DNA of 64,000 bases from Pararhizobium sp. IMCC21322 (GTDB lineage Bacteria; Pseudomonadota; Alphaproteobacteria; Rhizobiales; GCA-2746425). Each line of letters starts with the position of its first letter. Within the stretch, counting starts at the first letter, position 1. The notes beneath the pieces are model-generated. The model did not search any database. It was not told the DNA's origin and saw only the letters and a program-made list of their open reading frames with translations. The position numbers and the translations under genes were made by a program. The stretch covers positions 1,092,412 through 1,156,411 of the forward strand of contig NZ_CP132335.1 of the NCBI RefSeq assembly GCF_030758295.1, given 5' to 3'. Of the stretch, positions 19,592-64,000 are shown piece by piece.

Positions 19592-19610
19592 TGCGACCCC
19601 CATCATCTGA

Positions 19611-42518: not shown

Positions 42519-42524
42519 CTTAAG

Positions 42525-45500: not shown

Positions 45501-48500
45501 GGCAAGACATTAACACTTGTGAGTGCGGATGGTAAAACCGAGACAGCAAGCATTGATCTGGACGGCGACGGTATTTTTGACCGGGTCAGTGCTGATGGCA
45601 CAGTGGAGAATGTGGATGGTTCCAGCACACGCTCCATTATTCAGAGCTTTGCAAATGGGCAGACGGCCAGCAGTTCGATTGAGACATGGAGCGCTGACAA
45701 CAAAACCCGCACAACAAATATCGATAGTGATGGTGATGGTGCAGTTGATCAGGTTCAGACGGTTGAGATTATTGGCACGGATTCTGTTGAAACCAATTCG
45801 GTTTATTCGGCTGACGGGACGACGCTGTTGTCCCGGTCTGTTGCAACCACCAGTGCGGATGGCCTGACGCAACTGACTCAGACTGATGTGAATGGCGACG
45901 GAACCTTTGATGGATCTGAGAATGTGGTCAAAGTCATCAATCCTGATCAATCCTCAACTGTGACGATTGAGAACAAAAGCAGTGATGGGTCGATTATCAG
46001 TAAAACCATTACCACGACAAGTGCAGACGGCCTCTCCACAACAACCGAAATGTATCTGAACGGTGAAGCCAATCCTTATCAGCGTCAAGTCAGCGTTACG
46101 GTGTTAAATGTCGATGACTCAATTACCCAAACACAGACACTGTTTGCCGGAACCAACCAGATTCAGGTTTCACGGGCTGTTATCACAACCAGTGCCGACA
46201 AACTGTCTCAGACCGTTGAAGGGTTTTTGGGCACGAACGCAGCGCCGCAATCTGTTGTGACCAGTGTAACTTCCATCGATGGGATCGTTACGGAAACGGA
46301 GTTCACATATTCTCCTGATGGTACAATGTTGCTTGGCAAAACCGTTGCGACACTCAGTGCAGATGGCCTGACACAAACCACCGCCACGGATGCAGATGGT
46401 GACGGAGATATTGATGAAACCAGCATCGCTGTAAAATCTCTTAACACTGATGGAACCACCACCACCACCACAATCAACTATGCGGGTACCGGGACAGATG
46501 TAACTGATCAGACCGGGCGGTCTGTTGTGACCGTGAGCGGCAATGGTCTGTTGATCACGTCACAGAACGACGCCAATGGTGATGGAATTTTTGACGAGAA
46601 AAACACCGACGAAACTGTTCTGAACATTGACGGGTCCACGACAAATACCATTACCACCTTCAATGGTGATGGCACTATACAGACCGGTAAAGTCATCACC
46701 ACAATCAGCGATGACGGCCTTGAGACGACGACTTCGACCTTTGTGGGCACTGACAGCATCCCACATCTGGTAGCAACGGAAGTCAGTGTTCTTGGCTCGG
46801 ATGGTTCAACGACCAAAACCACGTCATCCTATAGCGCCGATGACACATTGATATCTCGGCAGGTTGCGACGAATAGCGGCGATGGGCTGAGTTCCAACAT
46901 AAGCACAGATACAAACGGCGACGGTGTTGATGATCAGGTCACTGTCACAAACACGAATGCCGATGGTTCTGTCACTGAATTCACGTCAATCTATGATGCG
47001 GGTGTTCTGGGCTCCCGAACAACACGCACAGTCAGCGGGGACGGCCTAAGCTCAACAATAACCACTGATCTGGATGGAGATGGTGTCACTGATCAGTCAT
47101 CAAGCGAGTTGGTGACGCTGAATGCAGACGGATCCCGGCAGACAACCACGTCCAACTTCAATTCCGATGGGTCCCTGCGGGATCGGATATTGATCACAAT
47201 CAGTGCTGATACTTTGACGACGACGACAATCTGGAAGGGGGCGGATGACAGCACAACAAAGACGGAAACAAAGTCAGATGTTGTAAACGCAGACGGTTCC
47301 TCAACACAGACCGTTACAACTTTGAAGGCTGATGGGACGCTGCAGGACGAGACAATTTCCGTCACGAGTGCTGATGGAACAAATGCCCGGACAACCATCG
47401 ATATTGATGGCGACGGGACCGTAGATCAGACCTTCGTTGATACAACACATACGGACGGGACAACAACGAGTTCCAGCATGAATGGAACCGTTCAGTCAGC
47501 CTCAGGGCGCGAGTTTGGGGCCGATGGTGGGCGATATCTTTCAACCAGCGCAGACGGACTTGTTTCGACAACGCAGTATGACGCGGATGGCGACGGCCTG
47601 GCGGAAACTCAGACAATTGTTGCAATTGTACTCAATGCAGATGGCACCAGTACAAGCACAACAACTCGAGCCGATTTGACTGGTGGCAATGCCGGCTCTG
47701 CCACGCCGGTTTATACAGAAACGGTGGCTGATATCACTATCGTCACCACCAGCGCTGACGACAGAACTGTCACGACAACCTGGGATGTTGACGGCAATGG
47801 TGTTGCAGAGACCAGCAGCACCATGCAATCCATTTTGAATAGTGACGGCACCACCACAGATACAACAGAGTATTTTGAAGGCACAACGCTCACGTCACAC
47901 TTCGTTACGAGCACAAGTGCAGATGGTCAGACGGTCACGACTGAGCGCGATATAGACGGGTCCGGTACGATTGATGAGGTGTCTACAAAAACGTTCAGCT
48001 ATGAATCTGACGGCACAGTGGTTGAGCTTGTCACCAACACTGATTCAAGCGGCACCTTGGTTTCGAAGAAGGAAACAACCACAAGTGTAGATGGGCAGAC
48101 TGTAACTGTACAATGCGACCCGGAAGGGACAGGGGCATACACTGAATCCATGACTACAAGGATTGTACTCCGGGCAGATGGATCCAGCATCGTCACACGG
48201 TCCGCTTACGATGGAACAGTTTTGCGCGATCAAAGTACAAACACCACCAGCGCTGATGGTTACACGACAACAATTGAACGTGACACAGATGGCGATGGTT
48301 ACATTGACCAAACAGAAACAATTACGCAATTCGTTGATGGGAGTTCTGAAACTGTCATCTCAGATTTTGATGGGTCAGGAACACTTACGAGCGAGAATAT
48401 AGGCCTCTTGTCCATGGACGGCCTGATCCTCAACTCGGAAAACGATGAAAACGGCGATGGAATCATTGATCAGACCACATCGCATACCTGGCATAATGCA

Positions 48501-51500
48501 GCTGATGGCTCTTCCATAGAGGTTCTGAAGGTTTACAGAGTCAGTGAGGAAGCGAACAACGGAACGTTTTCGACTATTTCACCTGAGCTTGAACGCGAAG
48601 TTAAGATCACCACAAGCGCGGATGGCCTGACTCAAACCTCTACCGTTGATGTCAATGGCGATGGTACCGTGGATGAAACGACAATAGTGGCACAAGGTAT
48701 TGATGGATCAACAGTTACTACAGCCACTGCAAATGCTTTAGCGCGATCGGTAAAAACTGATCCAGATGAGGTCAAATGGGCCTCTACCATTGCATCGGGT
48801 AGCCCAATAATAGCTGCCGCCACGACCACTACGACAAGTGCAGATGGTTTGACAAAAACCGTTGAATCCGACTTCGACGGCAACGGCACCTATGAGCACA
48901 AGCAGGTCTGGAAAAGCAATATTGACGGTTCCCAGATAGCCACCATTACTGACTCGAATGGAAGCGGTAGCATTATTGCCTCGGGCACAATTATAGTCTC
49001 GGCAGATCAGCGCACGACTGTTCTGACCAGAGACAAGAACAACGATGGCACCATCGATGGTAGTGAAGTGACTGTCAGAGAAATCGATGGAAATGTGATC
49101 AAGACAATCATAGGTAGTTCAGGCAACGAAACGCTTACTGGTGGAGACGGAGATCAAATTCTGATTGGTGGTGGCGGAACTGATAAACTCAAGGGCGACG
49201 ACGGAACAGACACGGCCAGTTATGCGACGTCTTTGGCTGGGCTTACCGCTAATTTGACTACCAGATCAGCTAACACTGGTGATGCTTCGGGTGACAGATA
49301 CTTTTCAATTGAAAATCTTATCGGTACCGACTTTGATGACGAAATGGTCGGCAATTCCAGCGACAACGAAATTCAAGGTGGCGCCGGGGACGATTCCCTT
49401 GACGGTCGTGCCGGCAACGATACTCTTTTGGGTGGTGCGGGGGCCGATCATTTAATTGGTGACGCTGGGGATGATCGCCTAACTGGCGGAGCAGGGGCCG
49501 ATATTCTTGATGGTGGTGCTGGTGACGATATAGCCATTTACAGGGCCTCATTTGAGAGCGTATCCATTGATCTTGAGTCTGGACTTGTATCCGGTGGAGA
49601 TGCTGCCGGTGATGTTTTGACGGATATTGAATCACTGGAAGGGTCAGGGTTTGATGACACGCTTTCCGGTGATGGCAGTGACAACAGTATCGCTGGTGGT
49701 TTTGGTGATGATATTCTCGCAGGCCGTGGCGGGGCTGATGCGCTGGATGGCGGAGCGGGTACAGACGTTGCTATTTATGATGGGGCTTTGTCAGAGTATG
49801 AAGTCCTTCGCCATGGCGATATAATCCGTGTAACGCGCCTGTCTGATAGCTCCGATGTCGACGAGTTGACGAATATCGAGACGTTACGATTTGCTGACAG
49901 TGATGTTGATCTGGCATCTGCGTTCCCCGATATTAACCCTGCCGCAGCGCAAATATGGGTTGGCACATCAGCCGACGGGCGTTTTACAACTGCCGTGTCT
50001 AGCATGAACTATGCGCTTGAGAATGGCCCTGAACATGGCTCTGTTACTATCAATGCAGATGGTAGCTACAGCCTGACGGCGGCTTCTGATTACAGCGGGT
50101 CTGACAGCTTTACGGTGAGGATGACAAATGCAAATGGCTTGGTCGAGCTGATCACCATTGACGTAACGGTTGTAACCACCGAGTTTGCTGCCGGTGCTGA
50201 GACACAGGTGAATACCAACACACCCGGTACTCAATATTCGAGTCACGTGGCGGGCCTTCCAGGTGGTGGCCATGTAGTTGTATGGCGGGACAACAATGGT
50301 CCGGATGGCAGTCTAGCTTCGGTTCGCGGCCAGCTTTATGGGGCTGACGGGTCTGTCCTTGGTTCTGAGTTCCAGGTCAACACATATGGTGCGAGCCTTC
50401 AGATTGATTCATCTGTCACCGGTCTTTTAGATGGTGGTTTTGTGGTCAGCTGGTCATCGTGGGTTCAGGACGGTTCTGGCTACGGCATTTATGGCCAGCG
50501 CTATGATGCTTCTGGGGCTACTATAGGGTCAGAGTTCGCAATCAACACCAGTCAAACCTCAAAGGACCAGAGGTATTCAAGTATCGCCTCCCTTTCTAGC
50601 GGTGGCTTTGTTGTAACATGGTATAATGCTAGTGGGTCATCTATTCGTGGTCGTGTGTTTGATTCCAATGGTGCGGAGACCGGCTCTGAGTTCCAGGTCA
50701 ACACATATAATTCAGACACGCAGATTACGCCTCATGTTACGGGTTTGGCGGATGGCGGTTTTGTGGTGATCTGGAAATCCAATGGTCAAGACGGTTCTTC
50801 TTGGGGGATTTTTGGTCAGCGCTATAATGCCGCCGGGGTAACAATTGGGTCAGAGTTCGCTGTAAACACCGGTATAACCTCATCCAGCCAGAGAGAGGCG
50901 CGTATCGCTTCTCTGTCTGGTGGTGGTTTTGTTGTGACGTGGTATGATGCCAGTGGCTCAGATGGCGATGGGCTATCGGTTCGTGGCCGGATGTTTGATG
51001 CCAATGGTGCGCAGACTGGCTCAGAGTTTCAGGTTAATACCTACAGTACAAACCACCAGTCTCAGTCCACTGTTACGGGTCTGGTTGATGGTGGCTTTGT
51101 GGTCAGCTGGGCATCCGCTGGTCAGGACGGTTCCGACTATGGGATCTTTGGTCAGCGTTATGATGCCTCTGGTGCTGTTGTTGGCTCTGAGTTCCAGATC
51201 AGTGACTACACGTCAGGCAAGCAGTACCTGCCGTCTATAGCAGCGTTACCGCAAGGCGGTTTTGTGGTCAACTGGACATCCGAAGGTCAGGACGGTTCTG
51301 GTTATGGGATTTACCGCAAAGTCTACACCCTCAAAGATGAGGTGCTAATTGGCAGTTCGGGCTTCGACCTTTTGGTTGGTGGTGATGGCGATGGCCGGTT
51401 AACTGGTGGTGACGGAATAGATAATATTGATGGGGGAGCGGGCGATGATGTACTGAACGGTGAGGGCGGCAACGACATACTGATAGGGGGAGACGGTCGT

Positions 51501-53459
51501 GACGAATTTCACGGCGGTGCAGGTAATGATAAACTTCACATCGACGATGACGATTTTGATGTAAATGGATTGCTTAATGTTGACGGTGGAGAGGGTTCCG
51601 ACACTCTGGTCTTTGAAGGCGCAACGGATCTCACTCTGGATTTGTCGCTCTACAACATGGAAAACATGAACTCCGGTTCCGGAGACGACACGATAACTAC
51701 CGGCGATGCAGATGCCGTTCTTGAGCTTGGTGCTGGGAATGACACCGCACAAGCGGGAAGCGGGAATGACGAAATCCACGGTGAAGCGGGCGACGACACC
51801 CTCAACGGAAATCTCGGCAATGACACGCTGATTGGTGGCGATGGCACCGATACTCTGAATGGCGGCGATGGCGACGATCGGATTGTCTCGGACGGCCAAG
51901 ACACATGGATAGGTGGCGATGGCGGCTGGGATACGGTTGTGTTTGAAACGACATCCGACATTTCCTATTCGCTCGCGCAGGGTAGTTTTGAAGAAGCTGA
52001 CGGTGGCTCGGGTAATGACACGTTCTGGGGCACAGCCGACGACAATATTTTGACCATGAATGATGGCGATGATACAGCCTTCGGCTACGCCGGGAATGAC
52101 ACCATCATTGGCGGGGCCGGTGCAGACAATCTGAATGGTGGCGATGGCGACGATCGGATTGTCTCGGACGGCCAAGACACATGGATAGGTGGCGATGGCG
52201 GCTGGGATACGGTTGTGTTTGAAACGACATCCGACATTTCCTATTCGCTCGCGCAGGGTAGTTTTGAAGAAGCTGAAGGTGGCTCGGGCAATGACACGTT
52301 CTGGGGCACAGCCGACGACAATATTTTGACCATGAATGATGGCGATGATACAGCCTTCGGCTACGCCGGGAATGACACCATCATTGGCGGGGCCGGTGCA
52401 GACAATCTGAATGGTGGCGATGGTGATGACCTGATCATTTCAGATGGCCTGGACAGCTGGATCAGTGGTGGCACTGGCTGGGATACGGTTGTATTCGATA
52501 CCACGGTCGGCGTTTCCTATTCGCTCGCGCAGGGTAGTTTTGAAGAAGTTGAAGGTGGCTCCGGCAATGACACGTTCTGGGGCACAGCCGACGACAATAT
52601 TTTGACCATGAATGATGGCGATGATACAGCCTTCGGCTACGCCGGGAATGACACCATCATTGGCGGGGCCGGTGCAGACAATCTGAATGGTGGCGATGGT
52701 GATGACCTGATCATTTCAGATGGCCTGGACAGCTGGATCAGTGGTGGCACTGGCTGGGATACGGTTGTATTCGATACCACGGTCGACGTTTCCTATTCGC
52801 TCGCGCAGGGTAGTTTTGAAGAAGTTGAAGGTGGCTCCGGCAATGACACGTTCTGGGGCACAGCCGATGACAACATTTTGACCATGAATGATGGCGATGA
52901 CACAGCCTTCGGCCACGCGGGGAATGACACCCTCAACGGTGGTGCAGGTAATGATTATCTCAATGGTGGTGATGACAGTGATACCATCGACGGTGGCGAC
53001 GGCAATGACAATATATTGGGCGCTGACGGCAACGATACACTCATCGCAAGTCAAGGTGTTGATGATTACGAGTTCGCCCGCGGTGAAGGTCAGGATGCCT
53101 ATATCGGAAGCGACACAGCTGGCATGTCGGATGATGATGTGTTTTCCTTCACCGATGGAATATCGAAGGAAGAACTTTGGTTTTCCCGCTCCATTGAAGA
53201 TCTTGAGATCACAATTGTTGGGTCAACAGACAAGGTCACCCTGCAGGACTGGTTCAGCAGCAATTTGTCCTCAGACACACCTGAGTACACTATTGATGAA
53301 ATCTGGGCCGGGTCCGAAAAACTGGAATCCACGGATATCAACTCATTGATTTCGGCAATGGCGGCCTTCACGCCAGATGACGGAAATGGAAACGGGGGCG
53401 TTACGTCGACCAATTTACCGCAATCATTGCAATTGGCAGTGGACGCGGCCTGGGCATAA
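42525..53459 (+). CDS. Giant RTX protein with HExxH, Hint, LysM and RTX repeats (3644 residues)
   Basis: Order of parts: a HEISH segment (about 94-98) in EVIFHEISHFALGHVF, a zinc-peptidase-like motif; a Hint (hedgehog/intein-like) module about 155-322 starting CFPGFVEIS and ending VHNM, with the block-B-like TPGHHF; three LysM domains (about 325-372, 387-434, 447-493); an EF-hand-like Asp-rich region (about 566-700); a long array of Asp/Ser/Thr-rich repeats with the SADGLT and DGDG motifs (about 700-2190); RTX nonapeptides (GGAGDDxL type, about 2196-2420); a cadherin-like part; about seven repeats of the GFVVTW/GQRYDA type (about 2560-2940); a second RTX block (about 2940-3500); and a C-terminal secretion-signal region ending DAAWA. 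Calcium-binding RTX folding outside the cell is expected. LysM suggests cell-wall or chitin binding. The N-terminal Hint may self-process. A GAGG site 9 bases upstream supports ATG 42525. Confidence 0.93.
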   Translation: MDIADVRVKITGSSDFQDAVNRVRSTGSYDKLNRMMTDRGIAYMEVRESASFMGSPGSAVFSQNRGLLATIDTSSRYPNGRRNGFMSVEEVIFHEISHFALGHVFQTRELAMEYASVTFTNQTFRKELGLSSRVGYEFNPLSVRPGARYLEPAECFPGFVEISTPKGIMKISDIKVGDTVWSFSGSSLIPAKVSRLYRNGTIEWVRLRWQERDETDTLVSRELVATPGHHFLDRFGNFRTIEEMIENGEATVILANGEEARVKAERIVYSEETAHLFEQAQSVTSVSSNLAVKPESVEGWQTYNFEVEELHTYIAGGVRVHNMSYNTTIQPGDTLSEIALKNGTTVAALLEDNEYIQDPNKIYAGNTLHITPGVRATYSSYGNAGNTYSIQSGDTLSEIAQRNGTTVAALMRDNRHITDPNKIYAGNRLYITPGGSVNSTYGNSSNGYNIQSGDTLSEIAQRNGTTVSALLRANPQISDPNRINAGDRISFGSTSSRTVNRGSTNSYSTSSDSGGPYSGQSWRDTSTGGTRVFNPSSRQFEDIGGSRAGQRSTNQTVGSGDSDSGGSDTKPVLMDLDGDGVNITPLQSSNFFYDTDGDGQKNRTAWAAAGDGVLVRDAGDDGIIELKEEIDFTSWAPSAKSDLEALRLAFDTNDDDKLSATDSEWSLFKVLVTNADGTTILKTLGELGITEIDLISNNQEITFEDGSKIVGSTTFTKSDGSTGIVGDVQLANDAAGYVVAETVTNNANGSTTIENVASRTDGTIAHKTTTTTSSDGNSRTIDFDDDGDGVLDRKQTEVRVVNGDGSVTKTLEDYDGSGTILTRRQITDTSADGKTVTVNRDTDGSGVNDQVETRVTGVDGTLTLTITNLNDDGTTNSEEVAITSADGLSKTVTVDSTGDGVVNATRVVSISVAVDGTRTETETDYAGDGVTAAHRVKTAVIVTNPDGSSRTVDTDLDGDGTTDISTISTILNNADGSRTTSDDVSNNDGSLRGKTLTLVSADGKTETASIDLDGDGIFDRVSADGTVENVDGSSTRSIIQSFANGQTASSSIETWSADNKTRTTNIDSDGDGAVDQVQTVEIIGTDSVETNSVYSADGTTLLSRSVATTSADGLTQLTQTDVNGDGTFDGSENVVKVINPDQSSTVTIENKSSDGSIISKTITTTSADGLSTTTEMYLNGEANPYQRQVSVTVLNVDDSITQTQTLFAGTNQIQVSRAVITTSADKLSQTVEGFLGTNAAPQSVVTSVTSIDGIVTETEFTYSPDGTMLLGKTVATLSADGLTQTTATDADGDGDIDETSIAVKSLNTDGTTTTTTINYAGTGTDVTDQTGRSVVTVSGNGLLITSQNDANGDGIFDEKNTDETVLNIDGSTTNTITTFNGDGTIQTGKVITTISDDGLETTTSTFVGTDSIPHLVATEVSVLGSDGSTTKTTSSYSADDTLISRQVATNSGDGLSSNISTDTNGDGVDDQVTVTNTNADGSVTEFTSIYDAGVLGSRTTRTVSGDGLSSTITTDLDGDGVTDQSSSELVTLNADGSRQTTTSNFNSDGSLRDRILITISADTLTTTTIWKGADDSTTKTETKSDVVNADGSSTQTVTTLKADGTLQDETISVTSADGTNARTTIDIDGDGTVDQTFVDTTHTDGTTTSSSMNGTVQSASGREFGADGGRYLSTSADGLVSTTQYDADGDGLAETQTIVAIVLNADGTSTSTTTRADLTGGNAGSATPVYTETVADITIVTTSADDRTVTTTWDVDGNGVAETSSTMQSILNSDGTTTDTTEYFEGTTLTSHFVTSTSADGQTVTTERDIDGSGTIDEVSTKTFSYESDGTVVELVTNTDSSGTLVSKKETTTSVDGQTVTVQCDPEGTGAYTESMTTRIVLRADGSSIVTRSAYDGTVLRDQSTNTTSADGYTTTIERDTDGDGYIDQTETITQFVDGSSETVISDFDGSGTLTSENIGLLSMDGLILNSENDENGDGIIDQTTSHTWHNAADGSSIEVLKVYRVSEEANNGTFSTISPELEREVKITTSADGLTQTSTVDVNGDGTVDETTIVAQGIDGSTVTTATANALARSVKTDPDEVKWASTIASGSPIIAAATTTTTSADGLTKTVESDFDGNGTYEHKQVWKSNIDGSQIATITDSNGSGSIIASGTIIVSADQRTTVLTRDKNNDGTIDGSEVTVREIDGNVIKTIIGSSGNETLTGGDGDQILIGGGGTDKLKGDDGTDTASYATSLAGLTANLTTRSANTGDASGDRYFSIENLIGTDFDDEMVGNSSDNEIQGGAGDDSLDGRAGNDTLLGGAGADHLIGDAGDDRLTGGAGADILDGGAGDDIAIYRASFESVSIDLESGLVSGGDAAGDVLTDIESLEGSGFDDTLSGDGSDNSIAGGFGDDILAGRGGADALDGGAGTDVAIYDGALSEYEVLRHGDIIRVTRLSDSSDVDELTNIETLRFADSDVDLASAFPDINPAAAQIWVGTSADGRFTTAVSSMNYALENGPEHGSVTINADGSYSLTAASDYSGSDSFTVRMTNANGLVELITIDVTVVTTEFAAGAETQVNTNTPGTQYSSHVAGLPGGGHVVVWRDNNGPDGSLASVRGQLYGADGSVLGSEFQVNTYGASLQIDSSVTGLLDGGFVVSWSSWVQDGSGYGIYGQRYDASGATIGSEFAINTSQTSKDQRYSSIASLSSGGFVVTWYNASGSSIRGRVFDSNGAETGSEFQVNTYNSDTQITPHVTGLADGGFVVIWKSNGQDGSSWGIFGQRYNAAGVTIGSEFAVNTGITSSSQREARIASLSGGGFVVTWYDASGSDGDGLSVRGRMFDANGAQTGSEFQVNTYSTNHQSQSTVTGLVDGGFVVSWASAGQDGSDYGIFGQRYDASGAVVGSEFQISDYTSGKQYLPSIAALPQGGFVVNWTSEGQDGSGYGIYRKVYTLKDEVLIGSSGFDLLVGGDGDGRLTGGDGIDNIDGGAGDDVLNGEGGNDILIGGDGRDEFHGGAGNDKLHIDDDDFDVNGLLNVDGGEGSDTLVFEGATDLTLDLSLYNMENMNSGSGDDTITTGDADAVLELGAGNDTAQAGSGNDEIHGEAGDDTLNGNLGNDTLIGGDGTDTLNGGDGDDRIVSDGQDTWIGGDGGWDTVVFETTSDISYSLAQGSFEEADGGSGNDTFWGTADDNILTMNDGDDTAFGYAGNDTIIGGAGADNLNGGDGDDRIVSDGQDTWIGGDGGWDTVVFETTSDISYSLAQGSFEEAEGGSGNDTFWGTADDNILTMNDGDDTAFGYAGNDTIIGGAGADNLNGGDGDDLIISDGLDSWISGGTGWDTVVFDTTVGVSYSLAQGSFEEVEGGSGNDTFWGTADDNILTMNDGDDTAFGYAGNDTIIGGAGADNLNGGDGDDLIISDGLDSWISGGTGWDTVVFDTTVDVSYSLAQGSFEEVEGGSGNDTFWGTADDNILTMNDGDDTAFGHAGNDTLNGGAGNDYLNGGDDSDTIDGGDGNDNILGADGNDTLIASQGVDDYEFARGEGQDAYIGSDTAGMSDDDVFSFTDGISKEELWFSRSIEDLEITIVGSTDKVTLQDWFSSNLSSDTPEYTIDEIWAGSEKLESTDINSLISAMAAFTPDDGNGNGGVTSTNLPQSLQLAVDAAWA
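51864..52967 (+). repeat. Four 276-bp tandem repeats inside the RTX gene
   Basis: The block beginning GGCGATGG recurs at 51864, 52140, 52416 and 52692, a period of exactly 276 bases (92 codons). Copies are nearly identical at the DNA level, copies 1-2 and 3-4 being closest. Each encodes an RTX-containing unit with WGTADDNILTMNDGDDTAFG. The identity suggests recent unequal recombination and predicts length variation between strains. Confidence 0.9.
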
Positions 53460-53767
53460 CCTGCGTTATACTGTCTGCACAAAATGAATTAGTCGAATCG
53501 AGCTTCCAAGACTCATAACAGGAAGGTGGCACTTTCGAAGAATGAGTGCCGCCTGCCATTCTATCCAGCGCGCGCGTGGCACGCGGGTGGAACTGATCTG
53601 ATCCATGAAAATGCCCACGTTTATGGTTAGAGGCTTCCGCAGAGATTCCTTAGCGGGAGAGGAGCGAATTGCTATGAAAGCATCGAAGTTTCGCAATTAG
53701 CACCAATCATACGCTTGCTGCAAAATAGATAATTTGATGGAGTGTCCAATAACCTCGTTCATTGCTG
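53460..53767. other. Intergenic region after the RTX gene
   Basis: About 310 bases without a supported gene between the RTX stop and the relaxase gene end. Convergent transcription meets here. No strong hairpin terminator was seen. Confidence 0.4.
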
Positions 53768-56545
53768 TCAACTAAGGGTCGGCACTCTTGATCGCCTTGG
53801 TGACAGCATACGCTCAATTTCGCTCGCCCGCTTCCGAGAGTTATCGACATAGAGTTTCGCGGTGTCTCTGTGTCTGGACATGGCAACATACGTTAAGTGA
53901 TGATCCATTTTGCCCGACGACAGCACAAAAGTATCATCAACCGTCGCGCCCTGGCTCTTGTGAATCGTCGTCGCATATCCATGATCGATGGAAGCATATT
54001 GTCTCGGTGAGAATGTCAGGCGGCGCGTCTGGCTTTGGTCATTACCATCAAGCAAGACGGTGAGGTTGTTTTCTTCAAAATTCTCAACAGTACCAAGAGT
54101 GCCGTTCTTAACGCCAAGGTCGGTATTGTTATTCGTGAAGATAATACGATCCCCGACAGCAAAAGCGCGGGGGCCATGATTGGTTTTGAACAGCTTTTCT
54201 TCCGCCAATTCCCCACCGGATTGACGCGCTTTGCGGACAGCCTGATTGAGCGTGTGAACGTCCTTGCGGCGATAAGCCAACGCCAAGCGAGACGCAGACG
54301 CACCCCGCAATTCAAAATCCGCCATGTAATCTTGCATTAGTGCAGTAATGGCATCAGATTTGGTGTCGTACTGCTCTACCGCGCCACGATCCGCATAGGC
54401 TTTAAGGGCAGCACTCGTTTTGTTTTGTGCAAAGTCTCGGGTGGCCTGACGTTGCCAGTCTTCATTCTGACGGCGAATTTCTGTCAGCTCGGCCTTGCCT
54501 ATTTGCTTAAGAACATCACGGAAAGGCGTGCCGGCATTTATGGGTTGCAATTGCTCGGGATCTCCGACCAAGACAAGCTTGGCACCCCGAAGGCGTGTTT
54601 CCTTGATAAATCGTAGCATTTGGCGGGTGCCAACCATTCCGGCTTCATCAATCACCAGCACATCGCCGCGTTGAAGTTGATTGAACCCATTATTCCAGCT
54701 TGTTTCAAATGATGCGAGCGTGCGACTTGCGATACCAGAAGCATCTTGCAGTCCATCGGCGGCCTTGCCGGAGAGCGCCGCGCCAAGAACGCGGTATCCT
54801 TGTTTTGCCCAAGCATCATTGGCGGCTGCAAGCATCGTACTTTTACCGGAACCGGCAAATCCGACAACCGCGCTCAATTGGTTATCTTCGAGCACATGGT
54901 TGATTGCCTGACATTGCTCATCGCTTAAGCTCGCACCCACGGCTTTTTGAAGCTTCGCATTCTGGTGATGAATGGCAGCGTGGATAGCCCGTGACCCAAC
55001 ATTATGAGTTCTTTGTCGTGCCATTGTTTTTGCATGATCGTTTAGCGATGTATGAAGGCGTTCCATCTCCTGCGTTGAATAAATTGGTTTTGGCGTATCG
55101 GAGAGTTTGACCAACTCGCTTGAAGCCAGCACGTCATCACAGGCAATGCGCAACTTGGCCGGGTCATCAATGTACTCTGCCAGCTTTCGCACAATGTCAT
55201 TACGGCTGAACCTGGCTTCCTTATCGGTGATAACATCGAGAATTCGTTCCGGAACGCTTCTGATTTGTTCAGCGCTCCAGATGATGTCCCATTCCTCAGG
55301 CGGGATAAAATATTGTCTTGGATCAAACGCAAGATCGTCGCTGCGTAAAAGCGTTCCGGTATCGCGATAGAATTTCGCCAGTGCGATGGATTGATGATGC
55401 CGCAGAATGTGAATGTCATGCTGCAGAACCTGTCGCTCATTAAGCTGGCGCTCAATCAGTTTTTGCGCCTTTGCCTGATCGCGTAGGTCGCAAGCGTGCG
55501 CCTCTGCTTCAATCTCCTGGCGCAGTGTTTGATAGTGGCCTGACAGCTTAGCCCAAACAGCCTTAATGCCTGTCGGAAGCCCTTCAGAACGCGCTTTGAT
55601 CTCGGCGATGCGCCGGGCTTCATGTTCTTGTCGGAGCGTCTCACGGGCGGCTCTATGGCGAGCAACCATATCAGCGCGCTTGCCCTGCAATTCCAGATGA
55701 CGGCGATCATATGAGGCAATTGCCTCTTCGTGGATTTCTCGCGCCTCGTGGGAAATTTCGTTTGCGACTTTGCGCTTTACATCATCAACCGAGGGCAGAG
55801 TGTCAGGATCACCCAGTTTTGCCCGAACATCTTTTGCTTTGACGCCGACCCATCGCGAGATTGAATAGATTTCACCGCGCCAATCAACCGCCACATGGCC
55901 GCGTCTATCGCCTTTCGCCAAAGTGAATCCGCGCTCGGCCAGAGCATTGGCAAACGCATCTTGCGAGTCCGACACCGCCCAGCAATCGTGAAACAGCTTC
56001 TTGAGAACCCGTACGTCATGTTTCGTGCGCTTGGCTTGTTGCCATTCAGCGCGCTTGAAATTCAGCGGATCACGGTCTTTGTAATTCTCTAACCCAGGTG
56101 GCATTTGCCAATCATGTTCAAGGAAAAGATCACGGGAAATTTCGGTCAGCTTTTCCTTGTAGAGCGACAGATTGATCGCTTTCATCTGATCAATGTTGAT
56201 GCGTGAGAAAACACAATGCACGTGACGACGGCCTTCCTTTTCGTGAAAGACAATCGCGCGGGGCTGCCCCACCAGCCCCAGCTTCTTTTCAATTCTCTCA
56301 ATTGCGTCCTCGAAAACTTTGACGGGGACATTTTTATTGCTTGGAGGATTGAGGCTTATCGAAAACAGATAATTTTTGGCTCTTGTCCCCATGGAAACGG
56401 CCTGAATTTCTTTGAACGCGCCGAACAGATTATTGGAGACAAAACCTCGCAAATCATGGATTTCAACATGATCATTATCCATCGTATTCATAAGATGCCG
56501 AGCCAGGCGCGATCCCCCGGCACGCTCATTTGCTTCGAGGATCAT
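53768..56545 (-). CDS. TraA/MobA-type relaxase-helicase
   Basis: A 925-residue protein. The N-terminal relaxase domain (about 1-260) carries EGRRHVHCVFSRIN with the metal-binding His pair H108 and H110. A middle charged coiled-coil part follows, then a TraI/RecD-like superfamily 1 helicase: Walker A GFAGSGKSTML (about 562), DEAGMVGTRQM (about 630), VGDPEQLQPI and TTIHKSQGATVDD (about 860). It nicks oriT and unwinds the transferred strand. Its start overlaps the MobC stop (ATGA). With the coupling protein at 4.8-6.3 kb it makes a mobilization set. The catalytic Tyr cannot be assigned with certainty. MOB class is not set; MOBQ-like architecture is likely. Confidence 0.9.
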   Translation of the reverse strand: MILEANERAGGSRLARHLMNTMDNDHVEIHDLRGFVSNNLFGAFKEIQAVSMGTRAKNYLFSISLNPPSNKNVPVKVFEDAIERIEKKLGLVGQPRAIVFHEKEGRRHVHCVFSRINIDQMKAINLSLYKEKLTEISRDLFLEHDWQMPPGLENYKDRDPLNFKRAEWQQAKRTKHDVRVLKKLFHDCWAVSDSQDAFANALAERGFTLAKGDRRGHVAVDWRGEIYSISRWVGVKAKDVRAKLGDPDTLPSVDDVKRKVANEISHEAREIHEEAIASYDRRHLELQGKRADMVARHRAARETLRQEHEARRIAEIKARSEGLPTGIKAVWAKLSGHYQTLRQEIEAEAHACDLRDQAKAQKLIERQLNERQVLQHDIHILRHHQSIALAKFYRDTGTLLRSDDLAFDPRQYFIPPEEWDIIWSAEQIRSVPERILDVITDKEARFSRNDIVRKLAEYIDDPAKLRIACDDVLASSELVKLSDTPKPIYSTQEMERLHTSLNDHAKTMARQRTHNVGSRAIHAAIHHQNAKLQKAVGASLSDEQCQAINHVLEDNQLSAVVGFAGSGKSTMLAAANDAWAKQGYRVLGAALSGKAADGLQDASGIASRTLASFETSWNNGFNQLQRGDVLVIDEAGMVGTRQMLRFIKETRLRGAKLVLVGDPEQLQPINAGTPFRDVLKQIGKAELTEIRRQNEDWQRQATRDFAQNKTSAALKAYADRGAVEQYDTKSDAITALMQDYMADFELRGASASRLALAYRRKDVHTLNQAVRKARQSGGELAEEKLFKTNHGPRAFAVGDRIIFTNNNTDLGVKNGTLGTVENFEENNLTVLLDGNDQSQTRRLTFSPRQYASIDHGYATTIHKSQGATVDDTFVLSSGKMDHHLTYVAMSRHRDTAKLYVDNSRKRASEIERMLSPRRSRVPTLS

Positions 56546-56988
56546 TAAGCTGACTCGGTCAACCCAAGCGCATTGATCAGATCGCCGCGCATGGAAACGA
56601 TATGTCCGTAAGCCTCATGGATTTCTTTGGTACATTGTTCATCAACCACCAAGGAGCCGACATTTGCCTGATAGGCGATCTGGTTTAGATTGTTGGCAAT
56701 CCGGGATTGACCGAGCATTCCTAAAACCCGTGCAAGGGCCAACTCATCTTTGACCGGAACACGAGAGCGCACCTTTCGCGGGGCTGTATCATTGCCAAAT
56801 AAGCATTTGCGGATATAGGCGCTCAAAGACATCCCAGCGGCCAAATCCTTTAGCATCGCCCGTTCTTCGTCCGTCAGCCGCAAGGTTATCGGGGAAGGAT
56901 GCCTCTTGGACTGCTTTTGCGATTTGGCGGCCCGTTTAAATGAATTGCGGCGTTCGCTGTCGCTCGCCGAGCTTTCCTGATTTCTCAT
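56545..56988 (-). CDS. mobC: MobC-like relaxosome protein
   Basis: A 147-residue protein with a basic N-terminus and the MobC core: PITLRLTDEERAMLKDLAAG, MSLSAYIRKCLFG and LARVLGMLGQSRIANNLNQIA. MobC proteins help the relaxase open oriT. The gene overlaps the relaxase gene and faces the intergenic region 56989-57121 where oriT would be expected. Confidence 0.88.
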   Translation of the reverse strand: MRNQESSASDSERRNSFKRAAKSQKQSKRHPSPITLRLTDEERAMLKDLAAGMSLSAYIRKCLFGNDTAPRKVRSRVPVKDELALARVLGMLGQSRIANNLNQIAYQANVGSLVVDEQCTKEIHEAYGHIVSMRGDLINALGLTESA

Positions 56989-57121
56989 GGCCTTGGCCCT
57001 TGAAACGGGACTTTAGGCGTGTCTGGGGATAGTTCCTCAAAGCCAATGTTTTCTTGTTTGAGGTGTGTGTTCCAGTCTTCTAATGTCTCAAATAAGGTGT
57101 TCGAAGTTTCTCCTTCGAGGT
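56989..57121. other. Candidate oriT region upstream of mobC
   Basis: The non-coding stretch between mobC and the integrase repeat has two inverted sequences: CCTCAAA (57035-57041) with TTTGAGG (57057-57063), and TCGAAG (57101-57106) with CTTCGA (57113-57118). Relaxase origins often lie upstream of mobC and contain such hairpins. No nick-site consensus was identified. Confidence 0.4.
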
Positions 57122-57201
57122 GCACCATTCACCCTAGGTGAACCCGCAGTAACCCTCTGATTTATAATGGTTTAACCGTTGGAACTCACCCGGAGGGATG
57201 T
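57122..57201. repeat. Left arm of 80-bp perfect inverted repeat
   Basis: Bases 57122-57201 (GCACCATTCACCCTAGG ... GGAGGGATGT) are the exact reverse complement of 58433-58512. The arm contains the ribosome site of the integrase gene. Confidence 0.95.
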
Positions 57202-57205
57202 ACAT

Positions 57206-58378
57206 ATGGATGTACAAAATACACGCCATCTCTATACCAAACGTGGCATCTACTATTTTAGCCGTCGTGTCCCCAGAGACTTGAAGGCACACTACAAGCA
57301 ATCACGAATTTCATTGTCGTTGGGCACAAAGTCCCAAAAAGTCGCTGGGGCAAGGGCAAGGACCCTTGTGGCGAAATTGGATGATGACTGGATTACACTG
57401 CGATGGAGAGCCTCCAGTGATCCGATTCGGCGCTTTCTTGTGGACCACACAGCTCCTAATGTCGCACTCACGTCCGATGCCCCCACTCTTGCAGAAGCAA
57501 TGGATCACTATCTCCAGGCTAAGAGCAAAGGCAGATCAGTAACCTTCCGCCAGGCTGCAGAGCGGTCTGTTGGCTACCTTACTGGACTTCTGGGCGACCG
57601 ACCCATTGATACCTATGCTCGTGCGGATGTGAACCGATTCCGAGATTCATTGTTTGAACGCGGTCTAAGTGCTGCAAGCGTGCGTCGCACCTTCAACAAT
57701 GTACGTGCATTGATCAACTTCGCCGCCCGTGAGCACGGTCTTCCAGAGATCAGGAGTTTCTCCGGGGTTTATCTGGGAGAGGAACAGCATCAGTCTGAAT
57801 CCAAACGCCAAACCATTCCCGTCGATGTCATCACGTCTATTCAAGCTCAGTGTCGGCAGCTTGATGATGAAGCGCGTTGGCTCATTGCGTTGATTAGTGA
57901 CAGCGGGATGCGTTTGAGCGAGGCAGTAGGACTCACGAAGGATGATGTTCATCTCAGCGGCACCCACCCACATCTCACGCTCAAGGCGCACCCATGGCGA
58001 AGACTGAAGACGCGTGGCAGCGAAAGGGTGATACCACTCGTGGGAGCTTCGCTTTGGGCAGCGCAGAGAGCCACATCAACTTCTCAGGGCGATTTCTTGT
58101 TTCCGAAGTACTGCAGCAAGGACGGTTGCAAAGCCAATTCGGCCAGTGGGGCATTGAATAAGTGGCTATCAGCAAGGGTGCCCAAGGGCTGTGTCATCCA
58201 CTCCTTCCGGCACAGTATAAGAGATCGCCTTCGGGCTGTTGAATGTCCATCGGATATGATCGATCGTATTGGCGGTTGGAGCATCGCAAGCATCGGTGAA
58301 GGCTACGGCTCTGGTTACCCAGTTGCAGTGGTTTCCAAATGGATGCTTAAGATTCAGATCAGCGCCAAAACGTTATAG
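57206..58378 (+). CDS. Tyrosine integrase (DUF6538-type) inside an inverted repeat
   Basis: A 390-residue integrase starting MDVQNTRHLYTKRGIYYFSRRVP (DUF6538 N-terminus common in alphaproteobacterial integrases). A SAM-like core-binding domain follows (about 90-180), then the catalytic domain: R236 in MRLSEAVGL, K268 in RLKTRG, H332 and R335 in HSFRHSIRDR, W358 in GGWS and Tyr367 in GEGYGSGY. All six positions are intact (W in place of the second His is common). ATG 57206 with GGAGGG 8 bases upstream is chosen over the TTG frame at 57179. Enclosure in an 80-bp inverted repeat with a tRNA core at one end suggests an att-associated or self-inverting module. Confidence 0.93.
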   Translation: MDVQNTRHLYTKRGIYYFSRRVPRDLKAHYKQSRISLSLGTKSQKVAGARARTLVAKLDDDWITLRWRASSDPIRRFLVDHTAPNVALTSDAPTLAEAMDHYLQAKSKGRSVTFRQAAERSVGYLTGLLGDRPIDTYARADVNRFRDSLFERGLSAASVRRTFNNVRALINFAAREHGLPEIRSFSGVYLGEEQHQSESKRQTIPVDVITSIQAQCRQLDDEARWLIALISDSGMRLSEAVGLTKDDVHLSGTHPHLTLKAHPWRRLKTRGSERVIPLVGASLWAAQRATSTSQGDFLFPKYCSKDGCKANSASGALNKWLSARVPKGCVIHSFRHSIRDRLRAVECPSDMIDRIGGWSIASIGEGYGSGYPVAVVSKWMLKIQISAKTL

Positions 58379-58432: not shown

Positions 58433-58512
58433 ACATCCCTCCGGGTGAGTTCCAACGGTTAAACCATTATAAATCAGAGGGTTACTGCGGGTTCACCTAG
58501 GGTGAATGGTGC
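58433..58512. repeat. Right arm of 80-bp perfect inverted repeat
   Basis: Exact reverse complement of 57122-57201. Its outer 8 bases are part of the tRNA-Thr-like core at 58505-58522. Confidence 0.95.
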
Positions 58513-58522
58513 CGCTTATAGG
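58505..58522 (-). other. 18-bp copy of tRNA-Thr 3' end (putative att core)
   Basis: Reading the minus strand gives CCTATAAGCGGCACCATT, identical to 804-821 at the tRNA-Thr 3' end. The bases beyond do not continue the tRNA, so this is a core copy, not a second gene. A match of this length to a tRNA 3' end beside an integrase strongly suggests an attachment site. Confidence 0.8.
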
Positions 58523-59700
58523 GATTGGTTCCCATCACAGGCATCGCAGCGACCCTGACTTCTAATGTAATCAATGACTTAGCAGATAGGCAGTTCGATG
58601 TGAAGGGGCAAGAATGTACATCCGTTTGTACATCCGCCCCATAGGCCTCCCTGAGTGACCTGAAGTTACCCTGGGTGGACTCTTCGGCGGACCGTCGTTG
58701 GTATAGGAACTGCCAGACACCTCGAAGGGGGGGGTACCGGGGGAAACTGGAAACACAGACACATACATTCATGCTCCCACATTTTTTGGTCAAAATGCCC
58801 GCACCCCAAGGTTACACCCTGGTTGCCTCTCAGTCTGCCATTGCTGTCGTCGCATTGAGTCACAGAGAGCCGTTAGTGCTTTCTAGGCAGCTGCCGCCGC
58901 GGAAGTTGAGAACGCTCTCCACAGCCCCATGGTAGGAGTCACAAAGGGCACTCTGGGTACCGAGGGTCTTGCTAGTGAGGAGTGATGTGAATGAAGTACG
59001 ACATACTAGCCCACGGCAACCAGCGCCCCACGGTGTCCTGAAGGAGACCACTGGGTTGCACCAGCAGGGGCACCTGATGGGAAGCCCAAAAGAGGACCCA
59101 CACCCAGCCGCCTAACCAAGACACAAAACAATGGTCATGAACATCAGTCGTGACCGTCGCTCACAGGACGTGTCTCAGGTTGCGTAAGGCATCGGTGTCT
59201 GCCTTCTCCCTCGTCTTCGTATGTGAGGTGGACTGCGATCCGGTTGGACCCAAGGTAACCTTGAGGTGCGTTGCGTCAGCCAGGATAACTGTGAGTTAAA
59301 CCTAGGGGCACCGGGGGAAACCAAACGACCGATATGTACAATCGGGGTCACATATTTTATCTGGAAATGCCCGCCGGAATCATGAGCAGGGAAGCTTCAG
59401 AGTGACTCACAGAGAGGCGTTTCGGTCACCGTAGGGGCAAGGTCATTTGGGCAGCTAAACGGCTCTGAGGGACTCACTGTGTGTGCTGCAAACGATGGAT
59501 GGTCGACGGGAGCACTTGGGGTGGACTAGGGGTGGAGAGCGGAAGCCCGCTGCTTGTACGAAAATGGCAGCAGCGAGGCGGTTTATCCCTTGGCAAAAAG
59601 TATCTCGCTCAAAAACCTAATTAGAGTGACTTCGTCCAAATGCAACTTCCAAACGAATGGAATGCATCTTATGTTGTGCTGGAATAATGTCGGAGCACGT
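58523..59700. other. Gene-poor region with degenerate direct repeats
   Basis: About 1.2 kb without a supported protein gene. An imperfect direct repeat is visible: CCGGGGGAAAC at 58737-58747 and 59311-59321, each followed about 55 bases later by AAATGCCCGC (58793 and 59365) and then by CACAGAGAG (58861 and 59408). The sequence is rich in short CCTGAAGG, GGTACC and GACTCAC-like words. A 16-residue frame with a good ribosome site (58991-59041) is noted but not called. The repeats could be promoters, iterons or phage-type regulatory units. Confidence 0.5.
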
Positions 59701-61311
59701 ATGTCATTCAACCTGAGTTTCCCAGGACAGAACACTGATATTTCAAACCTTAAGCTTGAAGCTGACCAAATGCTCTTTGTGTTGGGCGCGAACGGCACGG
59801 GCAAGTCGAGCATGATGCATCGCTTTGCCACACAAAACGCAAACCATGTAAGGAAAATCGCGGCACACCGTCAAACGTGGATGAGCACAGACGCCCTAGA
59901 TATGACGCCTCAAAATAAGCTTCAAACTGAAGAACAAATCAGAACAAACGATGCTCATAAGAGGTCACGTTATACCGACCGCTTTGCCGCGCAACGTGCG
60001 AGCATGACCGTTTATGATTTGATTGACGCGGAGAACGTTCGCGCCCGGGCAATGCAGACTGCCTACGATGCGGGTAGGATGGATGATGTGGAAGAAGCGG
60101 CAAAAAAAGAAGCCCCAATCACGATCATCAATGAATTGCTTCGGCAATCTAATATCCCAATCACGATCAATATAAGAGCAAATGAACGGGTAATGGCGAG
60201 CAAGGAAGGCGGACCAGAATACAGTGCAGTGGAACTTTCAGACGGTGAGCGTAACGCACTGCTGATTGCGGGGAGCGTACTCACAGCTCCGCCCGGTACT
60301 CTGCTGATTATTGACGAACCGGAGCGGCATCTGCATCGTTCGATCACTGCGCCGCTTTTAAGCCAGCTGTTTGCGCTCCGTTCTGATTGTGGATTCGTTA
60401 TCTCGACGCATGATCACGACCTGCCCCTTGAAGTGCCCGGAGCTCGCACGCTTCTTGTCCGTGCATGTAACTTCGAGGGTCAAAATGCGCAGAGTTGGGA
60501 GGCAGACGAACTACCATTCGATTCTCCAATTGACGACACTCTAAAGCGTGACCTCCTCGGCGCTCGTCGTAAAGTATTATTTGTCGAGGGCACGGAAAGC
60601 AGTTTAGACAAGCCCCTCTACAGCCTAATCTTCCCGATGGTTTCCGTGATTCCTAAAGGCAGTTGTCGCGAAGTCGAGAACTCGGTTGCCGGTAGCCGCG
60701 CGGGAGACGGCTTCCACTGGCTTCGCGCCTACGGGATTGCTGACGGTGACGGCTATGACGAGCAACAGATCGAAAGCAAGCGCCATGGAGGCGTATACGC
60801 TTTGCCCTTCTATTCGGTGGAAGCAATCTACTTTCATCCAGAGGTTATATCAAGGATTGCAGCACGCCAGACAGCCATCTTGGGGGGCAACTCAGCAGCC
60901 TTAGCGCAGAAGGCGATTGAGAGTGGGGTTGCGGGAGTCGCAGGATATACGGATCGTCTCAGCAAGAACGTGGCGAAGAAAGCGGTACGGAAACTGATAA
61001 TGGATCAAATACCAAACGACGACGATCTTTTGGCGGGGCATGAGGTGGAGGTTGTGAACAACGCGCCAAACATCCACGCAACCTGTAAGGCGGAACTCGA
61101 CGCGGCAGTTTCAACAAAAGACTGGGGAGCCATCTTGACCCGTTGCCCTGTCCGAGACTCGCCAGCTCTTGGAAACATCTCAGTAGCATTGCGTTTCCGC
61201 AATATTGAAGATTATGAAAAAGCGGTTCGTCATATGTTGACAGTGGACGCAAACGCACTGGCCTTCGTCAGAAGTCTGTTTGGTAATCTGCCAAGCCAAC
61301 TTGATGGGTAA
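59701..61311 (+). CDS. OLD-like AAA ATPase with C-terminal TOPRIM/DUF4435-like domain
   Basis: A 536-residue protein. The N-terminal ABC-type ATPase has Walker A VLGANGTGKSSMM (about 30), the signature-like ELSDGERNALLIAG (about 180), Walker B TLLIIDEPERHLHRS (about 200) and ISTHDHDL. The C-terminal half has VLFVEGTES and ADGDG with LPFYSVEAIYFHP, as in TOPRIM or DUF4435 nuclease-like domains of OLD-type proteins. Such proteins act in phage defence and DNA processing. ATG 59701 has CGGAG 5-6 bases upstream and gives the expected N-terminus; longer frames start at TTG 59554 or ATG 59662. Confidence 0.8.
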   Translation: MSFNLSFPGQNTDISNLKLEADQMLFVLGANGTGKSSMMHRFATQNANHVRKIAAHRQTWMSTDALDMTPQNKLQTEEQIRTNDAHKRSRYTDRFAAQRASMTVYDLIDAENVRARAMQTAYDAGRMDDVEEAAKKEAPITIINELLRQSNIPITINIRANERVMASKEGGPEYSAVELSDGERNALLIAGSVLTAPPGTLLIIDEPERHLHRSITAPLLSQLFALRSDCGFVISTHDHDLPLEVPGARTLLVRACNFEGQNAQSWEADELPFDSPIDDTLKRDLLGARRKVLFVEGTESSLDKPLYSLIFPMVSVIPKGSCREVENSVAGSRAGDGFHWLRAYGIADGDGYDEQQIESKRHGGVYALPFYSVEAIYFHPEVISRIAARQTAILGGNSAALAQKAIESGVAGVAGYTDRLSKNVAKKAVRKLIMDQIPNDDDLLAGHEVEVVNNAPNIHATCKAELDAAVSTKDWGAILTRCPVRDSPALGNISVALRFRNIEDYEKAVRHMLTVDANALAFVRSLFGNLPSQLDG

Positions 61312-62397: not shown

Positions 62398-63675
62398 TCA
62401 TGCAGCCAACTGCTGTGAAACCTTGTGCTCTATATTGCTGGCACCTGCATCCAACCAAGTATTTAGAAGCCGCCTCATCCGTTTACTGGGCAGGTATAAG
62501 ACAATGGGTTCACCCCGCCTTACCCTTGAGCGGTAGACCCACTGGATGAGTTCAGTGAGCGCATAACGATCCTGCGCATTTGTGTCTGAATTTGGACCCA
62601 ACCAGTTCTTGATGTAGGTATTCATGTACTGATCGTATAGGTAAATCAGATGAGTGCAGTCGATATAGTCGTTAGTCCCCCTTGTCGTATTTGCGACCCA
62701 TTGGGCACGATCGAACATCCTTGAATTCTTTGCGAAGTGACCAGTTTTGATTTTATCGCCTGTAGATTTTCCGTTGTGGAACCAGTTTGCTTTGGCACAA
62801 GTGATCATCACCCTGGACATATCGGATTGACCGTCCTGTTTTATTATCTGGCGCTGTTTGATATTCTTTAGGGCAGATCCGACGATCCTCCCATATTTCT
62901 TTTGGTTATTAGGATCGGTTTGTTTTGTGTAGGATAAATTAAATTTTCCAAGAGCAGGTATGTCTCTGATTTCGATAAGTTCCTTGGCTCGCTTCCGAAA
63001 CTCTAGGTCCACTGGAGGGTCTTTATCGACATCAACGCCGAGCTTCTTCAGATAGGGTACCAGCATCGACCCATCTGCCATGTATGTGTAGACAGTAAAA
63101 CTACTTGCCTTGGTAAGCAGTTCAATTGGCAAGGCCCACATAAAGAACTTCCCACTGACAAGGTGGAGCATTCCAGCATTGGCAAGCTTGAATAGCTCTG
63201 GGGACAAGGTGTCTGATGTGTTATCGCAGTCATTCATCCACTTCTCGGTCGCTAAAATTCGATTGTCTGGAGACAAGGTTGCATAGCCACGTCCAAGGTA
63301 GAACTCTTGGAAGGACGTTGTTGTGACCCCTGCAACACTGGCACACGTGTCAGGGACCTCATCGATGATGATGTGGTAATCCTCAAGTTTCCCGCTGCGG
63401 GCAAGACAGGCTACTCTCTGGTACATGGCATGAGTCGTGACAATGTTCAGGCCTTCGTCAAGGTGGGTCTCAAGGCTTTCTCTTTTGGTACCAGAAGCAT
63501 CCTTTGGTTCAACAAAGGGAACGCAAGCGCCTTTGATGACCCTTTTGACTTCACTTAGTAAGGGCACTACGACGAGGTATTTATATTTGGGATTGAAGGA
63601 TTGCAGCAGTTTGGTGGTCTTTCCAGAACCGCAGGGTTGATCGACAATGCGTATGGGTTTCCGAGTTGATGTCAT
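62398..63675 (-). CDS. Superfamily 2-like helicase/ATPase
   Basis: A 425-residue protein. Walker A QPCGSGKTTKLL lies near the N-terminus (about 13-25), then LVVVPLLSEVKR (motif Ia-like), VTTHAMYQRV and Walker B HIIIDEVPDT (DExx box, about 103). Near the C-terminus QWVYRSRVRRGEPIVLYLP resembles motif VI. It is shorter than most SF2 helicases and looks phage-like, though no exact family can be named. AAGGAG 6 bases before ATG 63675 is a strong ribosome site and favours this start over 63681. The gene is the rightmost in the window. Confidence 0.75.
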   Translation of the reverse strand: MTSTRKPIRIVDQPCGSGKTTKLLQSFNPKYKYLVVVPLLSEVKRVIKGACVPFVEPKDASGTKRESLETHLDEGLNIVTTHAMYQRVACLARSGKLEDYHIIIDEVPDTCASVAGVTTTSFQEFYLGRGYATLSPDNRILATEKWMNDCDNTSDTLSPELFKLANAGMLHLVSGKFFMWALPIELLTKASSFTVYTYMADGSMLVPYLKKLGVDVDKDPPVDLEFRKRAKELIEIRDIPALGKFNLSYTKQTDPNNQKKYGRIVGSALKNIKQRQIIKQDGQSDMSRVMITCAKANWFHNGKSTGDKIKTGHFAKNSRMFDRAQWVANTTRGTNDYIDCTHLIYLYDQYMNTYIKNWLGPNSDTNAQDRYALTELIQWVYRSRVRRGEPIVLYLPSKRMRRLLNTWLDAGASNIEHKVSQQLAA

Positions 63676-64000
63676 AAACATCTCCTTGGTTTGAGTGATT
63701 TTATTTTAAGGGGGAGGTCAATAAACCACAACTTTTCAATGGCTTACGAGTCGGTTGATCCGTGAGAAACGGCTCAGCGGTAACAAGGCTTGAACTCAGA
63801 GATAAGTTAAGTCGACCCAGGGGCGTCTGTGATGGTCTGTGATTGGTCATCACCCGAAAACAACAAATTTATATGGTCATTACCTGGGGTGAAACCTGAA
63901 GGTACTGAAGGTTAACTCAATGGGAAGGTGCTTACTGTGTGCTTTACGGTCCACTTAGTTAAATGGTGCTGTTCCACACCCCTTCAGAACCATCCAAACC
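63676..64000. other. Non-coding upstream region of helicase gene (window end)
   Basis: No gene was supported. The sequence has short repeated words (CTGAAGGT twice near 63890) and resembles 58523-59700 in style. It should contain the promoter of the helicase-like gene. Confidence 0.4.

Follow-up and report, generated by a model that had tools for sequence, protein, structure and literature searches.

This locus raises the question of why a copy of a tRNA end lies inverted beside a tyrosine integrase gene. In the window (the whole stretch of 64,000 nucleotides of Pararhizobium sp. IMCC21322 that was analysed), positions 58505-58522 are the reverse complement of positions 804-821 (CCTATAAGCGGCACCATT), and the latter were identified as the 3' end plus two bases of a tRNA-Thr(CGT) gene (744..819, plus strand; ARAGORN, Rfam RF00005 and exact-match comparison). 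The copy at the tRNA, the presumed target of integration, is called core c1 and the inverted copy (minus strand) core c2. Our recomputation showed that the match is exact over 18 bp and extends no further. Within the window, only two other exact inverted matches reach 18 bp or more, and the calculated chance expectation for one named 18-mer in 64 kb is about 1e-6. The initial annotation of this DNA had therefore rightly regarded the match as real and as very unlikely to have arisen by chance. It had also located the match at the outer edge of an inverted repeat, and we found that c2 shares 8 bp with the outer end of a perfect inverted repeat of 80 bp (57122-57201 / 58433-58512). It also opens a second perfect inverted repeat, of 1028 bp (58505-59532 / 69025-70052), whose second arm lies beyond the window. 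That c2 is a chance match or an assembly artefact has a negligible probability. The source genome is one contig of 5.25 Mb, and the recurrence of the layout at many tRNAs in many genomes already refutes it.

The end of the inserted DNA was then located. The initial annotation took 58505-58522 as the far end of the element. When 57100-58560 was used as the query, a further inverted copy of 58505-58560 was detected about 6 kb beyond the window end. The tRNA-Thr end itself is present there as a direct 19-bp copy (804-822 / 70035-70053, core c3), 6 kb past the window edge, which means that a direct repeat of the tRNA 3' end is present at both ends of the inserted DNA. In G003, a genome of the same genus, the sequence after tRNA-Thr resembles that after c3 at 70053 (28 bp at 93%), and G003 represents an empty site, though the flank match there is no longer than 28 bp. 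In G001 and G002, tRNA-Thr is followed by other sequence, unlike that after c3. The direct core together with the G003 flank makes 70035-70053 the likely right end of the inserted DNA. The foreign DNA would accordingly extend from about 820 to 70052, with the inverted 18-mer inside it rather than at its end.

The part of this DNA next to the tRNA has the content of a mobilisable element with a serine recombinase. The large serine recombinase ORF (755..2353, minus strand; Pfam Resolvase, Recombinase and Zn_ribbon_recom) runs into the tRNA gene. The element carrying it (820..57129) also encodes a relaxase-helicase (53768..56545, minus strand; Pfam Relaxase and AAA_30), a MobC/NikA-like mobilisation protein (56545..56988, minus strand; Pfam) and a TraD/TraG-like protein. 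At the junction, the serine and tyrosine elements have only GCACCATT in common, so the exact boundary between them, including the right edge given here, is inferred from this shared core. Among the best-scoring matches to the serine recombinase (own locus excluded), a tRNA 3' end lies at the recombinase C-terminus in 13 of 14 loci. This result indicates that the serine recombinase beside tRNA-Thr is in its normal place. Judged from the sequence, the gene order at tRNA-Thr is accounted for by two putative tRNA-targeting elements in tandem, the serine-recombinase element having probably inserted between c1 and the integrase-side arm of the other element in Pararhizobium sp. IMCC21322.

Several further features of the serine element were observed. 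The tRNAs abutted by this recombinase family (L197-L210) are Thr, Leu, Arg, Met, Ala and Ser, and serine integrases that use tRNA ends merit a separate study. A small gene ahead of mobC (MVHLEGETSNTLF..., 57000-57130; L013) begins within the GCACCATT att core. A similar frame is present at 4611799 of the genome, about 3 kb from a tRNA-Leu(GAG) that has a second, short DUF6538 frame beside it. Direct repeats of 276 bp (51864-52624) lie within a 3644-aa ORF (42525-53459), which adjoins an ABC exporter with a C39 domain and an HlyD-like gene. A 1002-aa protein with HD-CE and histidine-kinase-like ATPase parts (27257-30265) is a possible defence gene.

The tyrosine-integrase element occupies 57122-70052 (12.9 kb). 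We denote the core derived from the tRNA by c, the arm on the integrase side by P' and the distal arm by Q. In this notation the element has the layout c-P'-int-P'(inverted)-c2(inverted)-Q(inverted)-cargo-Q-c3, in which two perfect inverted repeats are nested, P' of 80 bp and Q of 1028 bp. The left P' arm (57122..57201, plus strand) begins in the core GCACCATT, and the right, inverted P' arm (58433..58512, minus strand) is 100% identical to it. Only one ORF is found between the P' arms, that of the integrase (57206..58378, plus strand; frame open from 57179). It contains an N-terminal DUF6538 domain and the catalytic domain Phage_integrase (Pfam, 2.9e-10), and the Arg, His-x-x-Arg and Tyr motifs, which we take to be those of tyrosine recombinases, were invariant in an alignment of three sequences. 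An arm-like direct repeat (GGATGTACA; 57196..57216, plus strand) lies over the integrase start, and a matching motif is inverted in Q, where the arm-like direct repeat is at 58615..58635 on the minus strand. The Q arm next to c2 (58505..59532, minus strand) is repeated perfectly, in inverted orientation, at 69025-70052, which ends in the direct core c3. Around c2 the minus strand reads Q-core-P'. This is the form required of the attP of a circle, suggesting that the integrated element keeps a whole inverted attP with c2 at its centre. The three sites can thus be assigned from their arms: c1 as attL (B-core-P'), c2 as whole attP (Q-core-P') and c3 as attR (Q-core-B').

Homologues of the integrase were drawn from genomes, GTDB contigs, plasmids and IMG/VR, and 56 distinct loci were tested. 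In this set only the two Maritalea integrases are at least 93% alike, and G140 was excluded because it represents the L056 locus a second time. In 40 of the 56 loci, the integrase lies between the arms of an inverted repeat that measures at least 30 bp. It reaches at least 55 bp in 38 loci, where it is perfect in 26 and imperfect in 12. Where the repeat measures 55 bp or more and a tRNA was detected, it nearly always contains 13-21 nt of the local tRNA 3' end (27/29 loci). Counting loci both with and without the repeat, 42 have a tRNA, and ARAGORN assigns these tRNAs to 17 types. Twenty other DUF6538 integrases served as controls, and a flanking repeat of at least 30 bp was detected in only one of them (L215, from G224), which has a 160-bp repeat and a second one of 705 bp. 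In a quick tree, from which L080 was excluded as too short, the main clade has 52 rows (SH-aLRT 98) and the repeat is present in 40 of its 46 uncut rows. Among the 16 loci lacking the repeat, five (G152a, L053, L072, L075 and L076) reach less than 200 nt beyond the integrase match, L070 is without upstream sequence, and L073, L074 and L080 are partial matches. L078, L079 and L081 lie outside the clade, L144 has 17 bp and G316e stops 781 nt after the integrase. No flanking repeat was found in G188a despite 4 kb of downstream sequence, and G240a has only the 18-bp inverted core, yet a Q repeat of 383 bp.

Both repeats were resolved in the window, Ruegeria sp. TM1040, G441b, G240b, G240c, G380c and G224. 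The TM1040 element (NC_008043), at tRNA-Phe, has a P' of 85 bp and a Q of 1148 bp holding a duplicated BRO-family gene, and its far end carries a direct core. Such a core was likewise present in G441b and G240b, and no tRNA was detected in G240c and G380c. In G441a and G380e the repeats are interrupted and the direct far core is present. Each of the two Maritalea drafts has Q at the end of the integrase contig, Q plus the direct core (attR) at the start or end of another contig, and a further contig, carrying cargo (9.3 kb and 17.1 kb), that is flanked by Q on either side; these contig breaks are as predicted for this layout in a short-read assembly. Among plasmids, the only strong match was TM1040, with 49.5% identity over 95% of the query. 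The phage search gave weak matches only (3 records), the IMG/VR search one distant contig only, and the PDB profile search nothing at E 0.001.

Two loci are described separately. L241 (G224 685000-704999, reversed: 1434-8687) has the same layout at a tRNA-Ser, with perfect inverted repeats of 160 bp and 705 bp. The DUF6538 integrase of G224 is outside the main clade, and its layout is perhaps of independent origin. L132 (G316 contig 22) contains two tyrosine-integrase elements on one strand, separated by about 11 kb, which suggests tandem stacking of this integrase family.

The orientation of the integrase relative to the tRNA was compared across the 56 loci. The tRNA lies upstream on the integrase strand in 42 loci, and no tRNA at all was found in the other 14. 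In up to 6 kb of sequence downstream, which measures at least 1 kb in 40 loci, no locus shows a tRNA that faces the integrase; in G380d, another tRNA lies 2.4 kb downstream on the same strand. Of the two orientations that a DNA-inversion switch would give the integrase, only one was thus seen, in the 42 loci with a tRNA. We considered whether pointing away from the tRNA could be an absorbing off-state. This idea was rejected, because the other DUF6538 integrases near tRNAs point the same way (11/11), including ten without the repeat and one with it, and the orientation is therefore no evidence for such a state.

These data bear on the proposal of the initial annotation that the window may represent either of two states, interconverted by an inversion of 57.7 kb whose ends are the tRNA-Thr core and c2; this inversion would bring the tyrosine integrase to its normal position. 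The exact inverted 18-bp match speaks for this inversion, and an intact attP facing the tRNA end could in principle recombine with it. However, a matching direct core exists at 70035-70053 with a similar flank at the tRNA-Thr of G003, serine recombinases of this family usually adjoin tRNAs, and the same inverted core is also present where no serine recombinase separates the tRNA from the integrase, for example in Ruegeria sp. TM1040. Moreover, the inversion would make the integrase face tRNA-Thr, an arrangement found at none of the 56 relatives. We conclude that the two-state reading is very improbable. What stands of the earlier interpretation is that the 18-mer is a tRNA-derived att core of the tyrosine integrase and that the cores are inverted.

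The cores, the two nested perfect inverted repeats, their recurrence at many tRNA sites and the differing cargo are directly observed. To explain them, we lean towards the reading that c2 is an inverted intact attP kept in the integrated element, by which the integrase and cargo modules could flip or be swapped without deletion of the cargo. The integrated form would be tRNA-c1-[P' int P'inv]-c2(inv)-[Qinv cargo Q]-c3-chromosome. As a general rule, also given in PMC8371274, tyrosine recombinases excise the DNA between direct cores and invert the DNA between inverted cores. Recombination of c1 with c3 would release a circle with two near-identical attPs inverted to each other, that of c1 with c2 would only flip the integrase module, and that of c2 with c3 would only flip the cargo. 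Each predicted outcome preserves the att layout and none deletes the cargo alone; since the latter two reactions only flip, the integrase by itself should be unable to delete the cargo. Related elements could swap cargo in two ways, through integrase action at a pair of inverted sites or through homologous recombination within Q. As the layout would be kept and the cargo never deleted alone, cargo exchange is the most economical use of it that we see. Gene conversion would hold the arms identical and could extend Q into the cargo ends. Because no locus has a tRNA facing the integrase, flipping is presumably rare, unstable or absent in stable genomes.

The arms beside the cores were compared among elements. 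Q beside the core aligns across elements and contains a pair of direct repeats of about 10 bp, a TTGACA-like box, TAAC..ATTGAT and GTGCCTG. The core and the P arm next to c2 were recognisable by eye in 31 of 33 aligned Q regions; single boxes are absent in some (e.g. G316d), and in L066 and L069 the sequence past c2 differs from the usual P arm. The longest word common to the inner end of P' and Q averaged 10.7 nt within elements versus 7.2 nt between elements (n=34), and in G316b, G221 and G222 it did not exceed the length seen between elements. We take the direct repeats of both arms as putative integrase arm sites. Between elements the P' identity has a median of 52% (tRNA part removed), and the two P' arms within one element are identical in 26 of 38. 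In the two closest pairs of elements, substitutions are mirrored in both P' arms, at one site in L058/L059 and at three sites in G380d/G316b. A conserved promoter in Q that switches the integrase on was also considered. TTGACA-like boxes recur, but the scores are barely above those of shuffles (8.4 versus 7.5; window, 7 versus 7.5), and for this reason no Q promoter is claimed.

The c2-side P' ends within the first arm-like repeat in the window and after the first in many other elements, and it holds both repeats in L061 and L062 (all by eye). Since it stops at the first arm-like repeat, c2 may be less active in the window and in many other elements. It may even be recombinationally inert, the paired arms being regulatory or structural and kept identical through gene conversion. 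Antisense transcription from Q could then pass through the integrase gene, or an RNA or DNA hairpin could hide the integrase start. Such a role would fit the absence of the second arm-like repeat from the c2-side P' in the window and many other elements, the P' repeat of the window stopping 5 bp before the integrase ATG, and the lack of any integrase facing a tRNA in the 56 loci. In contrast, the core and P arm kept in 31/33 Q regions go beyond the needs of a hairpin, and promoter-like sequences in Q score only slightly above shuffles. We therefore regard an inert c2 as possible but rather unlikely.

In the window, the cargo includes an AriAB-like (PARIS-type) ATPase/DUF4435 protein (59554..61311, plus strand; PADLOC AriAB 1.2e-54, Pfam AAA_21 and DUF4435) and a gene for which no family was found by Pfam or PADLOC (62398..63681, minus strand). 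Outside the window, PADLOC identified HamB (65191-67815) and HamA (67817-68785) of Hachiman. The cargo of the Maritalea elements contains type ISP and type I restriction systems (PADLOC, Pfam), that of G240c Mza proteins and a cytosine methylase (PADLOC, Pfam), and that of TM1040 type I restriction by annotation. Defence genes were present in 5 of the 7 elements examined for cargo. No clear system was detected by PADLOC in G240b (three proteins; weak PrimPol match) or G224 (two proteins).

Of the 12 related pairs listed, 9 have data 450-600 bp beyond c2, and the similarity there was within the background range in all 9; in G441a/G240b it climbs again at 600-900 bp beyond c2. Most related pairs that possess a stretch between integrase and c2 differ there too, so the cargo is not the only variable part. 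In the Maritalea pair the integrases are 95.4% identical and the cargoes have no blastn match. Vertical inheritance with an in-place cargo swap was considered for this pair and is unsupported, given an integrase identity of 95.4% against about 80% for the chromosome. Overall, the cargo differs between related integrases, and the similarity ends in Q, not at the core. An end inside Q fits homologous recombination as well as exchange by the integrase.

We compared the element with known systems. It resembles tRNA-targeting islands of tyrosine integrases, with their P4/ICE-like attL-int layout, in the integrase by the tRNA 3' end, the direct end cores, the empty site and the DUF6538 plus Phage_integrase domains. 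It differs from them by an additional whole attP, which lies inverted behind the integrase, and by a nested pair of perfect inverted repeats. In engineered recombinase-mediated cassette exchange, inverted loxP sites bound a cassette that can flip or be swapped and is not deleted. The cargo here is likewise bounded by identical inverted sites, whereas the system is natural, the similarity ends in Q and the exchange by integrase would be an inferred step. The yeast 2-micron plasmid carries the Flp gene between inverted FRT sites within long inverted repeats. The circle predicted from the integrated form also has its recombinase gene between two inverted sites in long inverted repeats, and it could be a bacterial counterpart that, by flipping between the inverted attPs while it replicates, is amplified ahead of transfer. 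We consider this improbable; the element integrates into tRNA genes, and the likeness lies in the predicted circle geometry. RIT elements, with three tandem tyrosine recombinase genes, were ruled out by the single ORF between the P' arms.

Like strand-biased circularizing integrative elements, GInt and RIT, the element is integrative and presumably moved by a tyrosine recombinase. Strand-biased elements require intA, tfp, intB and srap at one of their ends (PMC10214605), whereas the present element has a single integrase gene between inverted att sites and is located at tRNAs. The archaeal integrase IntpTN3 is similarly tied to inversion; there, chromosomal inversions come from low-specificity recombination between chromosomal segments and not from a built-in inverted attP (PMC8371274). 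In the open-access full texts searched, we found this layout described nowhere, which is weak evidence of absence, because subscription papers and preprints were outside the scope and some queries were narrow. DUF6538 was mentioned in no paper of the open-access full-text collection searched. The layout is also easily overlooked in drafts, since long inverted repeats break short-read assemblies, as in Maritalea.

Defence genes at tRNA sites turn over fast. How cargo is swapped without loss of the mobility module is, to our knowledge, not well explained. The internal inverted attP offers a concrete and testable geometry, in which flipping and swapping would be allowed and deletion forbidden. 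We tentatively suggest, as a broader proposal that is doubtful at present, that these elements form a widespread family in which a permanent inverted attP splits the integrase from the defence cargo, with inverted att sites on both sides of each module. The cargo could be flipped or exchanged by the integrase but would never be lost, and the excised circle would be 2-micron-like. Such elements may thus perform a natural cassette exchange of anti-phage genes.
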